Shown here: positions 22,128 through 26,657 of the stretch, piece after piece
How positions within the stretch are numbered: position 1 is the first letter of the stretch
How the letters are laid out: each line of letters begins with the position of its first letter
IMG/VR virus record: IMGVR_UViG_3300042549_001172
Span: 1-26,657 of that record
From: a virus
Direction: 5' to 3' (one strand)
Length of the DNA stretch: 26,657 nt
Made by a program: the position numbers and the translations under genes
The notes under the pieces: model-generated
The model's database searches: none
The model's input: the letters and a program-made list of their open reading frames with translations, nothing else
Told to the model about the DNA's origin: nothing

Positions 22128-22344
22128 AAAAGAACGGCAAACCTTGCGTGAACACATTGTCTGGCTTGCCTCTCAACTTGAGCAAGAGAGAAAGCAAAAC
22201 CAGCACACTGTTGTGTTCCTAAAGCGCATCCTTGACCCTGAAGACTTGGGTCATGCAGTATCAAACGAAACCAGACAACTAGCCTACCAATTACTCATTG
22301 AACATCACCACATCGAAAGATCATCATGGCAACAAAGCAACTAA
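22120..22344 (+). CDS. Small hypothetical protein
   Basis: A 74-residue charged helical protein from ATG 22120 (MDEKERQTLREHIVWLASQL, then EQERKQNQHTVVFLKRILDP and a His-rich end HHHIERSSWQQSN). It overlaps the resolvase by eight bases and the nuclease gene by 19 bases, so it is cotranslated with the recombination genes. No recognised motif. It could be a small accessory subunit of the neighbouring nuclease, which is inference. Confidence 0.7.
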   Translation: MDEKERQTLREHIVWLASQLEQERKQNQHTVVFLKRILDPEDLGHAVSNETRQLAYQLLIEHHHIERSSWQQSN

Positions 22345-23417
22345 ACATCAGACCATCAGGTATTGGACGCACTATTGCTTGCCCTGCAAGCGTCAGGTTA
22401 TCAGCACAAGTTCCTTACCAAGAGGGTGGTGAGGCGGCAAAGATTGGCACTGCAATTCATGCACTAGCAGAGCATTGCTTTAAAGATCAATCAGACCCCA
22501 TGCTCTTAGTTGGCACAGTCGTTGAGGGCATCACAATGACAGAGGAGAACTGTGACTTTGCCAAACAATATCTTGACGCTATTTTTAATATATACAACGA
22601 GGTTGAATGGGCTTGCGAGGGCGAAGTTGAGAAATTCCTACCCTACCAAGATACCCCTGCATACAAGTGTGGTGGTACTGCTGATTTTATTGGCATCAGC
22701 ACTTCATGGCGCAAACTCATCATTGCAGACTTGAAAACTGGTAGAGGGTATGTCGATGCTGATAGTGAACAGTTGAAGCTATACGCATTGGCGGCAATGG
22801 AGTCTGAAGGTTTATATCAAGACATCGACACCATCGAACTCCAGATTATCCAACCCCATCACGGTGAGGTACGCAAGCACACAATGACAACTCAGGAGTT
22901 GGTTGATTGGGAGCATTACATCCTGACCCCTGCCATTGAGAATGCTCTTAACCCTGCATACCCACCTGTACCTAGTGACTCTGCTTGCCAGTACTGTGCG
23001 GCTAAAACTATCTGCCCTGCACAAGCAAACATGGTTGAGGTTGTTCACTCTGCACCTCCAGTTGAAGTGCTGACAGAAGAACAGATCAGCGTCTTGCTGA
23101 CCAAGTTCGACATGGTTGAGGACTACATCAAGGCGGTCAGAGATCATGCCCTTAAACGCATGGAGAAGGGTGCTGTGATTGCTGGATGGCAACTTGCACC
23201 CAAGAGAGCGTTAAGGTCTTGGACTTCAGAAGATGAGGCGATGAAGCATCTCATGTTCCTTGGCATGGGCATTAAAGAGATAACGAAGACCGAACTCATC
23301 ACCCCTGCACAGGCAGAGAAACTATTGCCTAAAGGCTTAAAGGAGTCCATCGAACCTTTAACTTCCCGCATATCTTCAGGATTGACGCTTGCCAGAGACA
23401 AAGGTTTGAGTCAATAA
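22326..23417 (+). CDS. Cas4-like PD-(D/E)XK nuclease (DUF2800-type)
   Basis: A 363-residue protein starting with RPSGIGRTIACPASVRLS, then GTAIHALAEHC (residues 41-51), GGTADFIG (116-123) and the nuclease motif IADLKTGRG with D135-x-K137. Cys19 plus C221, C224 and C230 (CQYCAAKTIC) form the one-plus-three cysteine pattern of Fe-S-cluster nucleases such as Cas4 and AddB. The combination matches DUF2800 proteins, phage PD-(D/E)XK exonucleases. It probably resects DNA ends for recombination alongside the RuvC-like and SSB-like proteins. There is no CRISPR array nearby, so adaptation is not implied. Confidence 0.87.
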   Translation: MATKQLNIRPSGIGRTIACPASVRLSAQVPYQEGGEAAKIGTAIHALAEHCFKDQSDPMLLVGTVVEGITMTEENCDFAKQYLDAIFNIYNEVEWACEGEVEKFLPYQDTPAYKCGGTADFIGISTSWRKLIIADLKTGRGYVDADSEQLKLYALAAMESEGLYQDIDTIELQIIQPHHGEVRKHTMTTQELVDWEHYILTPAIENALNPAYPPVPSDSACQYCAAKTICPAQANMVEVVHSAPPVEVLTEEQISVLLTKFDMVEDYIKAVRDHALKRMEKGAVIAGWQLAPKRALRSWTSEDEAMKHLMFLGMGIKEITKTELITPAQAEKLLPKGLKESIEPLTSRISSGLTLARDKGLSQ

Positions 23418-24146: not shown

Positions 24147-24153
24147 AGGTGGT
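24147..24153 (+). promoter_or_regulatory. Shine-Dalgarno-like element shared by two overlapping frames
   Basis: AGGTGGT at 24147-24153 matches AGGAGGT with one mismatch. It directly abuts ATG 24154 (methyltransferase frame, too close) but is four bases from ATG 24158 (second frame), a more usual spacing. Confidence 0.5.
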
Positions 24154-24900
24154 ATGAATGAGTTGGCTTTATTCGCAGGTGCTGGTGGAGGAATACTTGG
24201 CGGCAAACTGCTTGGATGGAGAACAGTCTGTGCAGTCGAGTGGGAAGCCTATCCAGCAAGCGTACTGTGCGCCCGACAAAATGACGGTCTTCTCCCGCCT
24301 TTCCCGATTTGGGATGACGTTCAAACCTTTGACGGAAAACCTTGGCGAGGAATTGTCGATGTCGTCAGTGGTGGCTTTCCATGTCAGGACATTAGTGCCG
24401 CAGGAAAAGGCGCAGGAATTGATGGAGAACGATCAGGAATGTGGTCAGAAATGGCTCGCATCATTCGTGAAGTACGACCACGATTCGTCTTTGTGGAGAA
24501 CTCACCAATGCTCACTTCTAGGGGGCTTGGACGAGTTCTCGGAGACTTGGCCGCAATGGGGTTTGATGCGAGATGGGGAGTGTTGGGAGCAAAAGACATT
24601 GGAGCAAGCCATCAGAGGGACAGAATCTGGATTGTCGGCAAAGTTTCCAACACCAGACACAACGATGGCAAACAGAGGGACATCACCAAACTGGAAGCCA
24701 AAAAGACCATCTGGAGCACAGGCTCAGTATTCACTAAATCAAGCACTCAGGGACTTAACTGGGTTGACTGGAAAACCGAACCCGATATTTGTCGAATGGT
24801 TAATGGGTTGGCCACAGGGATGGACAGACTTAAAGCCCTTGGAAATGGACAAGTCCCACTTTGTGCCGCAACAGCATGGCGAATCCTTACAGAAAGATAA
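24154..24900 (+). CDS. Cytosine-C5 DNA methyltransferase (Dcm-like)
   Basis: A 248-residue protein with the ordered C5-methyltransferase motifs: motif I LFAGAGGG (6-13) for SAM binding, motif IV GGFPCQDIS with catalytic Cys77, motif VI FVFVENSPM with E115, motif VIII QRDRIWIV (154-161) and motif X LGNGQVPLCAATAW (229-242). It transfers a methyl group from SAM to C5 of cytosine in a target not readable here. Such enzymes protect phage DNA from host restriction. The target-recognition region is short (about residues 163-210). The whole gene overlaps another 248-codon frame. It follows a strong terminator, so a nearby promoter or readthrough is needed; none is obvious. It may also be translated poorly because AGGTGGT abuts its ATG. 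Confidence 0.9.
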   Translation: MNELALFAGAGGGILGGKLLGWRTVCAVEWEAYPASVLCARQNDGLLPPFPIWDDVQTFDGKPWRGIVDVVSGGFPCQDISAAGKGAGIDGERSGMWSEMARIIREVRPRFVFVENSPMLTSRGLGRVLGDLAAMGFDARWGVLGAKDIGASHQRDRIWIVGKVSNTRHNDGKQRDITKLEAKKTIWSTGSVFTKSSTQGLNWVDWKTEPDICRMVNGLATGMDRLKALGNGQVPLCAATAWRILTER

Positions 24901-24904
24901 CTAA
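24158..24904 (+). CDS. Overlapping +1-frame ORF resembling a methyltransferase-associated phage protein
   Basis: Also 248 codons, shifted by four bases, sharing 743 bases with the methyltransferase. It reads MSWLYSQVLVEEYLAANCLD, SRLSRFGMTFKPLTENLGEE, KYDHDSSLWRTHQCSLLG, then FSETWPQWGLMRDGECW, KFPTPDTTMANRG and FVEWLMGWPQGWTDLKPLE. I recall phage proteins, often annotated as methyltransferase-related, with the order KYD-SS-RTAQ-SLLG, FSETWPR-G-MR-G, WPTP, and EWLMG-P-GWT. The last resembles the LMGFP-GWT element near the C-terminus of C5 methyltransferases. ATG 24158 has the better spacing to the only Shine-Dalgarno-like sequence, and its stop abuts the next ATG (TAAATG). Whether it is expressed, or only a mirror of the first gene, cannot be decided here. 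Confidence 0.5.
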   Translation: MSWLYSQVLVEEYLAANCLDGEQSVQSSGKPIQQAYCAPDKMTVFSRLSRFGMTFKPLTENLGEELSMSSVVAFHVRTLVPQEKAQELMENDQECGQKWLASFVKYDHDSSLWRTHQCSLLGGLDEFSETWPQWGLMRDGECWEQKTLEQAIRGTESGLSAKFPTPDTTMANRGTSPNWKPKRPSGAQAQYSLNQALRDLTGLTGKPNPIFVEWLMGWPQGWTDLKPLEMDKSHFVPQQHGESLQKDN

Positions 24905-26657
24905 ATGTCAGCACAACAAATAGCCACCACACTCGGCAACGCTAAGAAAGTGGGAAATGGTTACCTAGCAAGTTGTCCTGTTCCTCATCATGGTCAGGGC
25001 AATGGAGACAAGAACCCATCCCTATCAGTGACAGATGGTGAGGATGGCAACATACTCTTTAAGTGTCATGGTGGGTGTGAGCAGTCAGCAGTGTTCAGCA
25101 CCATCAAGGACATGGGCTTACTGCCAGCACTACCAGACAGACCAGAATACCTATCAAATGTCAGACCCATCATGCCAGCAATACCAATCCTAGAGAATGA
25201 ATGGGTCTATACAGACGAGAACGAAATCCCGCTGTTCCTCAAGCAAAGATACAAGACCTTTGATGCCAAAGGTAAGACCTATAAGACTCTCAGAGTCATG
25301 GCTGATGGCAGTCGTGTAGGGAAGTTGGGAGATTGCAGAATCGTGCCTTACAGACTCCCCGAGGTGCAACAGGCAGTTGCCGAGGGAAGAGCAATCTATA
25401 TCTGTGAGGGTGAAAAGGCGGCAGATGCCTTGTGCAGTCTTGGAGTAGTAGCCACCACCTCGCACGCTGGTGCAGGAGGCTGGAATCAAGACCTGAACCA
25501 ATACTTCACAGGCGCAAATGTTGTTGTCGTGCCAGACAATGATGCCGCTGGTTGGGGTTATGCAGACAAGATCGTTCAGTCGTTGCTTGGCATAACCAAA
25601 AGCATCAGGGTCATTGATCTGGAGTTGCCAAAGCCAAAGGAAGATGCACATGAGTTTGTCCATAAATACTCAGGCACAAAGGAAATACTGGCAAGCAAAG
25701 CCAAGAAGTCTCAGCCATTGACGCATGAAGATGTCATCCTGATACCCAAAAGATTGATTGAATCAGCAATTGATTCCCTGTTAAGCCACAACAATGAACC
25801 TAAAGAAGAACAGCAACAGCAACCCAATGCCCGAAAGAAGCTACTGGTCGAGTCTTGGGACTCCATTAAGGATGAGCCAGTTGAGTGGCTGGTCGAGTCG
25901 ATCATTCCTAAGAAAGCCTTTGTTGCCCTGTACGCACCCCCTGCCTCATGGAAGTCGTTTATTGCCTTGGATTTGGCAGAGGCGATAGCTACAGGTAGGG
26001 ATTGGATGGGTTACAAGATACCCAAAAAAGGCGCAGTTTTATTCATATCTGGTGAAGGGTATGGCGGTATGGGCGCAAGGGTGTCGGCTTGCAAGATACA
26101 GAACCAGAGTCCAGATGGCGCAAACCTGTACATCATCAGGGCGCAACTCAACCTCAGATCGTCACCCGAGGACTTCACCGAACTACTCAACGCCATCAAT
26201 GACCTGATTGCTGAGATAGGTGAACCCATAGAACTCATCATCTTGGATACCCTGATGAGGATGGCAGGCGGTGAGTTCAACGAGTCATCATCTGAGGATA
26301 TGGGTGGGTTTATCACCCAAACAGGCAAGTTGCAAGAGATATTTGAATGTGCCTTGCTGGTGATTCACCACACAGGCAAGGACATTAGTAAAGGTTTGCG
26401 TGGGCATAGTTCATTGTTAGGTGGGTGCGATACGGTGCTTGAGATCGTGAGACAGGATTCAGTCATCAACTCATCAGATGTGAGCGTGATAGGGAATGCA
26501 ATCCTCAAAGTGTCAAAGCAGAAAGATGGGGCTGACTCCATCGAATTAGGCATTGAGATCGTACTGGTGGAGATTGGAACATCAACGCTAGGCTTTGAAA
26601 TTAACACCAGTTTGGCTATCAGGCACAACCAAGACATAGCTGGTGGGAACTCAAAAG
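24905..26657 (+). CDS. Primase-helicase (zinc-binding, Toprim, AAA/RepA-like), partial at right edge
   Basis: An open frame of 584 codons running off the right edge. Residues 20-60 form a primase-type zinc site (C24 and H28/H29 in SCPVPHHGQG; C54 and C58 in KCHGGCEQ). A Toprim domain follows with YICEGEKAADAL (E168) and VVVVPDNDAAGWG (D211-x-D213). A Gln/Glu linker (about 297-310) leads to a RecA/AAA_25-like ATPase with Walker A-like ALYAPPASWKSF (344-351), Walker B IELIILDTL, and VIHHTGKDISKGLRGHSSLL, typical of RepA-like helicases. The protein would make primers and unwind DNA at phage forks. The Walker A lacks the usual GxxGxGKS glycines. The start immediately follows the TAA of the overlapping second frame. 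Confidence 0.88.
   Translation, partial: MSAQQIATTLGNAKKVGNGYLASCPVPHHGQGNGDKNPSLSVTDGEDGNILFKCHGGCEQSAVFSTIKDMGLLPALPDRPEYLSNVRPIMPAIPILENEWVYTDENEIPLFLKQRYKTFDAKGKTYKTLRVMADGSRVGKLGDCRIVPYRLPEVQQAVAEGRAIYICEGEKAADALCSLGVVATTSHAGAGGWNQDLNQYFTGANVVVVPDNDAAGWGYADKIVQSLLGITKSIRVIDLELPKPKEDAHEFVHKYSGTKEILASKAKKSQPLTHEDVILIPKRLIESAIDSLLSHNNEPKEEQQQQPNARKKLLVESWDSIKDEPVEWLVESIIPKKAFVALYAPPASWKSFIALDLAEAIATGRDWMGYKIPKKGAVLFISGEGYGGMGARVSACKIQNQSPDGANLYIIRAQLNLRSSPEDFTELLNAINDLIAEIGEPIELIILDTLMRMAGGEFNESSSEDMGGFITQTGKLQEIFECALLVIHHTGKDISKGLRGHSSLLGGCDTVLEIVRQDSVINSSDVSVIGNAILKVSKQKDGADSIELGIEIVLVEIGTSTLGFEINTSLAIRHNQDIAGGNSK

Follow-up and report, generated by a model that had tools for sequence, protein, structure and literature searches.

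Does a second long reading frame that lies over a phage cytosine methyltransferase gene encode a protein of its own, or does it stay open only as a by-product of the gene on which it lies? The question is raised by a locus in the IMG/VR virus record IMGVR_UViG_3300042549_001172, of which positions 1 to 26,657 were analysed (this whole stretch of 26,657 nucleotides is called the window below). Two frames, f1 and f2, are found there on the + strand, as are all the motifs and regions placed in the following. f1 (24154–24900) runs from an ATG at 24154 to a TAA at 24898–24900, and f2 (24158–24904), in the +1 frame over f1, from an ATG at 24158 to a TAA at 24902–24904. Each has 248 codons and they share 743 nt, so that the coordinates given in the initial annotation are exact; it had left a choice between a genuinely overprinted gene pair and a conserved open mirror frame that fills databases with spurious proteins. 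The third frame across the locus contains 14 stops. The window also holds a DUF2800/PD-(D/E)XK nuclease-type gene at 22326–23417 and a primase/helicase-type gene at 24905–26656.

A Shine–Dalgarno-like AGGTGG, common to both frames, is located at 24147–24152, 1 nt 5′ of the f1 ATG and 5 nt 5′ of the f2 ATG, which bears out the earlier remark that it is better spaced for f2. The f2 stop directly adjoins the primase ATG at 24905, also as had been described. For comparison, two sets of 80 loci were gathered, one by searching with f2 and the other with f1, giving 109 distinct genes after de-duplication; 54 of the 109 came from the f1 search and were therefore not selected for f2. In all 109 genes f2 starts with ATG and its N-terminus reads M(S/T)WL. 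The codon aligned with the f1 methionine is ATG in 56 genes, GTG or TTG in 29 and a non-start codon in the remaining 24, where f1 must therefore begin elsewhere. Most of the 109 genes have a Shine–Dalgarno-like site 5–12 nt upstream of the f2 ATG; it is AGGTGG with a 5-nt spacer in 11 of them, other such motifs being found in most others. The following gene begins at the base right after the f2 stop in 63 of the 109, as it does in the window. The f2 start lies 27 nt farther upstream in 12 genes (L007, L025, L035, L060, L061, L096, L101, L106, L118, L121, L129 and L137), with MSWLIS.AL or similar at the N-terminus, and the underlying f1 stretch (e.g. MVNQQS) is unrelated to the usual NELALFA. 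In most of these 12 loci the candidate f1 ATG is found just downstream of that of f2 and not 4 nt upstream.

Domain content of the two frames

f1 belongs to the C5-cytosine methyltransferases, with matches to PF00145 (Pfam, E 1.1e-32) and phrog_363 (E 7e-66), and the catalytic motifs of these enzymes are found in it with invariant residues. Motif I (LALFAGAGGG, 24163–24192) lies inside the PF00145 match, motif IV (GGFPCQDIS, 24370–24396) contains the catalytic cysteine in a P-C-Q that is invariant in the f1 alignment, motif VI (FVFVENSP, 24484–24507) has the invariant E-N, and motif VIII (HQRDRIWIVG, 24610–24639) the RxR with R155 and R157 invariant. Motif X, of the GNxxxP type, is present as ALGNGQVP (24835–24858), with N231 invariant. 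The initial annotation credited f1 with all main motifs, and this holds for I, IV, VI, VIII and X; the target-recognition region (TRD) and motif IX, however, are absent from this polypeptide, since the PF00145 match covers only profile positions 4–191 of 324. An AF2 model of f1, calculated from an alignment that left out the phage-record loci, is modest overall (pLDDT 54); it has structure up to residue ~165 and at 235–246, and is very weak over residues 168–230 (pLDDT ~28–40). With this model Foldseek matches M.HaeIII, M.HhaI and DNMT1, and ~170–180 residues of the two bacterial enzymes are aligned.

What is f2, then? Searches of Pfam and NCBIfam with f2 gave no match, and phrog_1008 (‘DNA methyltransferase’) is matched with E 5e-23. 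The AF2 model of f2 is poor overall (pLDDT 57) and best over residues ~180–230, so that the confidence of the two models, both of them modest, is complementary along the locus. A Foldseek comparison of the f2 model with viral structures was set aside, the model being too weak for interpretation.

A search with the f2-frame protein of mycobacteriophage Firecracker identified contiguous single-ORF methyltransferases (L214, L216, L217, L218 and L222), in which motifs I–VIII, PTP modules of the f2 type, motif IX and motif X follow one another in one frame. Their sequences read ...QRERVFILAY..., repeated LLPTPTA.. modules, LNPRFAEWMMGWPLDW and RICGNGVVPQQA. A comparison of the f2 profile with these enzymes gives 96.8% probability and E 2.1e-10, the aligned stretch being the PTP module and motif IX; pairwise, the window f2 matches them weakly (best E ~0.003 at fixed database size), and the homology is based on the profile comparison together with intermediates. 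The profile of the contiguous enzymes in turn aligns by position, below significance, with M.HhaI 271–309, LHPRECARVMGYPDSY...QFGNSVV, which comprises motifs IX and X. Intermediates are represented by Firecracker, where gp6 stops shortly past motif VIII and the TRD, IX and X are found on gp5, which is read in the f2 frame (gp5 has no usable match in Pfam or NCBIfam), and by L212, L213 and L215, which are split likewise. Among the 113 loci found by f2-type queries, f1 is in the same relative frame as in the window in 103, and at least 80 of the 113 are nested, that is, f1 continues beyond motif IX of f2. Such f1/f2 pairs occur widely, in phages as well as prophages from many different hosts.

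Since the TRD and motif IX of the f2 type are homologous to the small domain of the contiguous enzymes, f2 has just what is missing from f1, and the two frames carry complementary domains. In the window the putative recognition region of f2 is a PTP-type module, short at ~45 aa (24641–24778), followed by motif IX (NPIFVEWLMGWPQGWTDL, 24779–24832), which aligns with motif IX of the contiguous methyltransferases. Upstream, above f1 motifs VI–VIII, f2 contains a block that is near-invariant in its alignment (SLWRTHQCSLLGGLDEFSETWPQWGLMRDGECW, 24488–24586). The idea, put forward in the initial annotation, that the WPTPTA-type motif and the ADT/ANT-type motif of methyltransferases are a single piece of DNA read in two frames turned out to be true in the loci examined.

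Some relatives show variations on this arrangement. Several repeated PTP-type recognition modules are found in L033 (3001–4134), L214 and L216 and are common to distant phages; these repeats could be a modular specificity code. The E. coli PT62 prophage has an intact nested pair, and in the PCP07014 prophage stops at one site break both frames (L322, L323). In mycobacteriophage Llama (L187, 1194–1953) an indel that shifts the frame relative to Spikelee (L189) breaks and swaps both frames, and the locus is annotated as two separate ‘DNA methyltransferase’ genes.

We consider it highly probable that f1 and f2 are one cytosine-C5 methyltransferase split by domain, f1 being the large catalytic and f2 the small recognition polypeptide. 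The same domain content could also be delivered by a programmed +1 frameshift in the neighbourhood of motif VIII, yielding one fused chain in the order I–VIII, TRD, IX and no separate f2. The contiguous enzymes show that a methyltransferase can function with its parts in this fused order, and the two frames do overlap at the join. Frameshifting, however, needs neither an ATG of f2's own with M(S/T)WL conserved in 109 of 109 genes, nor a Shine–Dalgarno-like site before it, nor a frame that is open throughout, and motif X is back in f1; we therefore regard this possibility as unlikely. It is still more doubtful that f2 is a genuine overprinted protein with some other function, such as an inhibitor or an accessory factor. 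Its first 130 residues appear to have no counterpart in the contiguous methyltransferases, where only the C-terminal part aligns, and would fit such a role, but the TRD and motif IX of f2 are homologous to the small domain, f1 is missing precisely these, and in the split intermediates it is the f2 frame that encodes IX and X.

Coding evidence for f2

f2 is a genuine protein-coding frame. None of the 109 de-duplicated homologues has a stop inside it, and the +2 frame of the same genes has on average 16.9 stops per gene. The initial annotation put the chance of an open f2 at about one in 10^5 under a naive uniform-codon model, in good agreement with the 6.7e-6 that we computed, and more realistic expectations were obtained by synonymous recoding of f1. 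When the synonymous codons of f1 itself were shuffled, 4.7 f2 stops were expected per gene and 0.4% of simulated genes were free of them; with codons drawn from neighbouring genes the values were 8.3 and 0.1%. For the window, 4.1 stops are expected with own codons and 7.8 with neighbour-gene codons, and f2 was free of stops in 0 of 200 simulations under either codon source. Codons 5–130 of f1 alone should have produced 259 f2 stops in total, and 0 are observed. These counts across the 109 genes are not independent trials because the genes share kinship.

The substitution pattern resolves which frame is constrained where. At 65–80% protein identity, differences at f1 position 3 amount to 0.30–0.35, versus 0.50–0.56 in neighbouring genes, and f1 positions 1 and 2 differ as they do in neighbouring genes at matched protein identity. 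Up to motif VIII the most variable position is the third of f1, except in codons 37–48 and 133–144; under the conserved f2 block described above f1 third positions are nearly frozen, for example at codons 118 and 136. Constraint on f2 is partial over its first 130 residues, weaker than in the remainder, and no stops occur there. Across the recognition region and motif IX the most variable position becomes the first of f1, which is the third of f2, and over motif X it is the third of f1 again (f1 positions 1/2/3 at 0.084/0.025/0.39), so that substitutions there follow f1 codons.

In the recognition region the test was done on loci aligned as DNA only, with phase kept in 1,140 of 1,141 matches, and at 70–75% nucleotide identity f2 positions 1/2/3 differ by ~0.19/0.13/0.49–0.50. 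Loci found by f1 alone give 0.19/0.14/0.49. A variable position that coincides with the third of f2 between motifs VIII and IX means that f2 is constrained there and f1 is its shadow. Two E. coli prophages that were put through a pairwise phase test have different modules in this region. The f2 string PTAHN.KEGAYP......TPTLA...GG is common to a Stenotrophomonas phage (L180) and a freshwater phage (L007), and the f1 readings of this f2-conserved stretch look unrelated. The coding-type phase of f2, present also in loci selected by f1, together with the TRD and motif IX homology, supports the overprinted pair among the two alternatives left by the initial annotation. The proposed division of one enzyme over the two frames went beyond what had been claimed, and in the recognition region it is f1, not f2, that is the shadow.

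Database annotation is consistent with the remark that the mirror frame has filled databases, in that annotators name f1 in some records (L172, L174 and L192) and f2 in others (L173, L180 and L185: phPA-G CDS0044, ‘hypothetical’; SOVA965, ‘DNA-cytosine methyltransferase’; DosHalletts gp71, ‘hypothetical’). Among the nested records viewed, the two frames are never annotated as an overlapping pair. Genomes with the second protein and without the first, which the initial annotation had proposed to look for, did not emerge: the ‘standalone’ f2-like database proteins that were fetched overlie a methylase in the other frame, and one further candidate (L235) starts at a contig edge.

Could f2 nevertheless be a mirror frame, open only through the amino acids and codon bias of f1, with spurious database proteins? 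The missing Pfam and NCBIfam match, the poor AF2 model and the many records in which f1 alone is annotated would all be expected then. For such a frame, stops should arise at the rate of synonymous change in f1 and f1 third positions should be free, the outcome that had been named in advance as speaking against f2. Instead, recoding predicts 4.7–8.3 stops per locus where none is found, f1 third positions are constrained, the variable position of the recognition region is that of f2, and the contiguous methyltransferases contain a domain homologous to f2, so the mirror frame is hardly credible. The converse, that f2 is the sole functional frame and f1 is decaying, could draw on the two of 109 loci with a premature f1 stop and intact f2, but it is scarcely tenable, as f1 is otherwise intact with invariant catalytic residues, substitutions track its codons over motifs I–VIII and X, and the two loci may be sequencing errors or pseudogenes. 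These loci are L044 (833–1693) and L139 (3001–3921), and the reverse case occurs in none of the 109 genes; beyond sequencing error or pseudogenes, the stops are possibly a sign of f2 outliving f1.

The proposed split enzyme and its precedents

In the split methyltransferase that we propose, a single ribosome-binding site would direct initiation at both ATGs, whose positions differ by 4 nt. f1 would provide S-adenosylmethionine binding, the catalytic cysteine and motifs I–VIII plus X, and f2 the small domain, with motif IX and the target-recognition region. Pairing of the two chains is likely, since C5 methyltransferase domains are known to complement one another as separate fragments. Together they would methylate the DNA of the phage itself, with the f2 module selecting the sites. 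Phage methylases usually serve to protect against host restriction, and evading it is the probable purpose here too.

If f1 and f2 are split in this way, many short phage methylases that seem to have no recognition domain would have it in the second frame, where it frequently goes unannotated or is labelled ‘hypothetical’, and annotation and specificity predictions made from f1 alone would be corrected. The natural series of contiguous, split and nested forms would make the evolution of an overlapping pair from one gene traceable, and would offer a ready supply of naturally split methylases. To our knowledge, the reality of long coextensive overlaps in double-stranded DNA phages has rarely been demonstrated, and here more than 100 distinct homologues allow a clean frame-by-frame test. 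We are evenly divided on a broader proposal, namely that such pairs belong to a large class of C5 methyltransferases in phages and bacteria that has so far escaped recognition, with catalytic and recognition domains in coextensive frames, and that they originated stepwise from contiguous genes via a simple split, the front half of f2 being newly overprinted and aiding pairing. Recognition modules would then be swapped in f2, with f1 tolerating its shadow reading.

A literature search on overprinted methylase genes and on the WPTPTA/EWLMG motifs found nothing on the f1/f2 family; several known systems are nevertheless instructive. In the phage element of ShiLan, an HNH endonuclease is hidden in the other frame of a phage methylase as a mobile insertion (PMC11855218). 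The likeness is that the gene of a phage DNA methylase conceals a second protein in a different frame; f2, in contrast, extends over the full gene, gave no HNH match in Pfam and is taken to be part of the methylase. With the monomeric M.HhaI and M.HaeIII f1 shares the catalytic fold and motifs, and the order of domains along the DNA is the same, but those enzymes use one frame where the TRD and IX are here in another. Detached fragments of C5 methyltransferases complement one another, and enzymes of two polypeptides exist naturally in M.EcoHK31I and M.AquI (PMC3404938). In M.AquI (CYCGRG) one chain bears motifs I–VIII, and its partner bears IX with some or all of the variable region (PMC3404938). 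Catalytic motifs and motif IX are thus on separate chains as in f1/f2; the second chain of M.AquI also holds X, however, which is here in f1, and Firecracker gp6/gp5, with IX and X on gp5, is nearer to this type.

The closest precedent of the f1/f2 pair is M.EcoHK31I (YGGCCR), an enzyme that has been used in targeted methylation (PMC3439449). Its larger chain has I–VIII, X and a predicted TRD, and its smaller chain has IX (PMC3404938). Both systems thus keep I–VIII and X on one chain (f1 here) and IX on the other (f2). The f1 and f2 frames overlap by 743 nt. For M.EcoHK31I, Lee, Kam and Shaw reportedly found in 1995 that an alternative frame within the gene of the larger chain encodes the smaller one and that both chains are required in vitro. 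The differences are that the TRD of M.EcoHK31I is predicted on the larger chain, whereas here phase and homology put it in f2; that the present frames are coextensive, 248 codons each with starts 4 nt apart; and that the f1/f2 pair is phage-borne and without an identified restriction enzyme. To these systems we add contiguous and split relatives of the pair, and what appears to be new is the frame-resolved placement of recognition in f2, the coextensive overlap of both genes and their wide distribution among phages.
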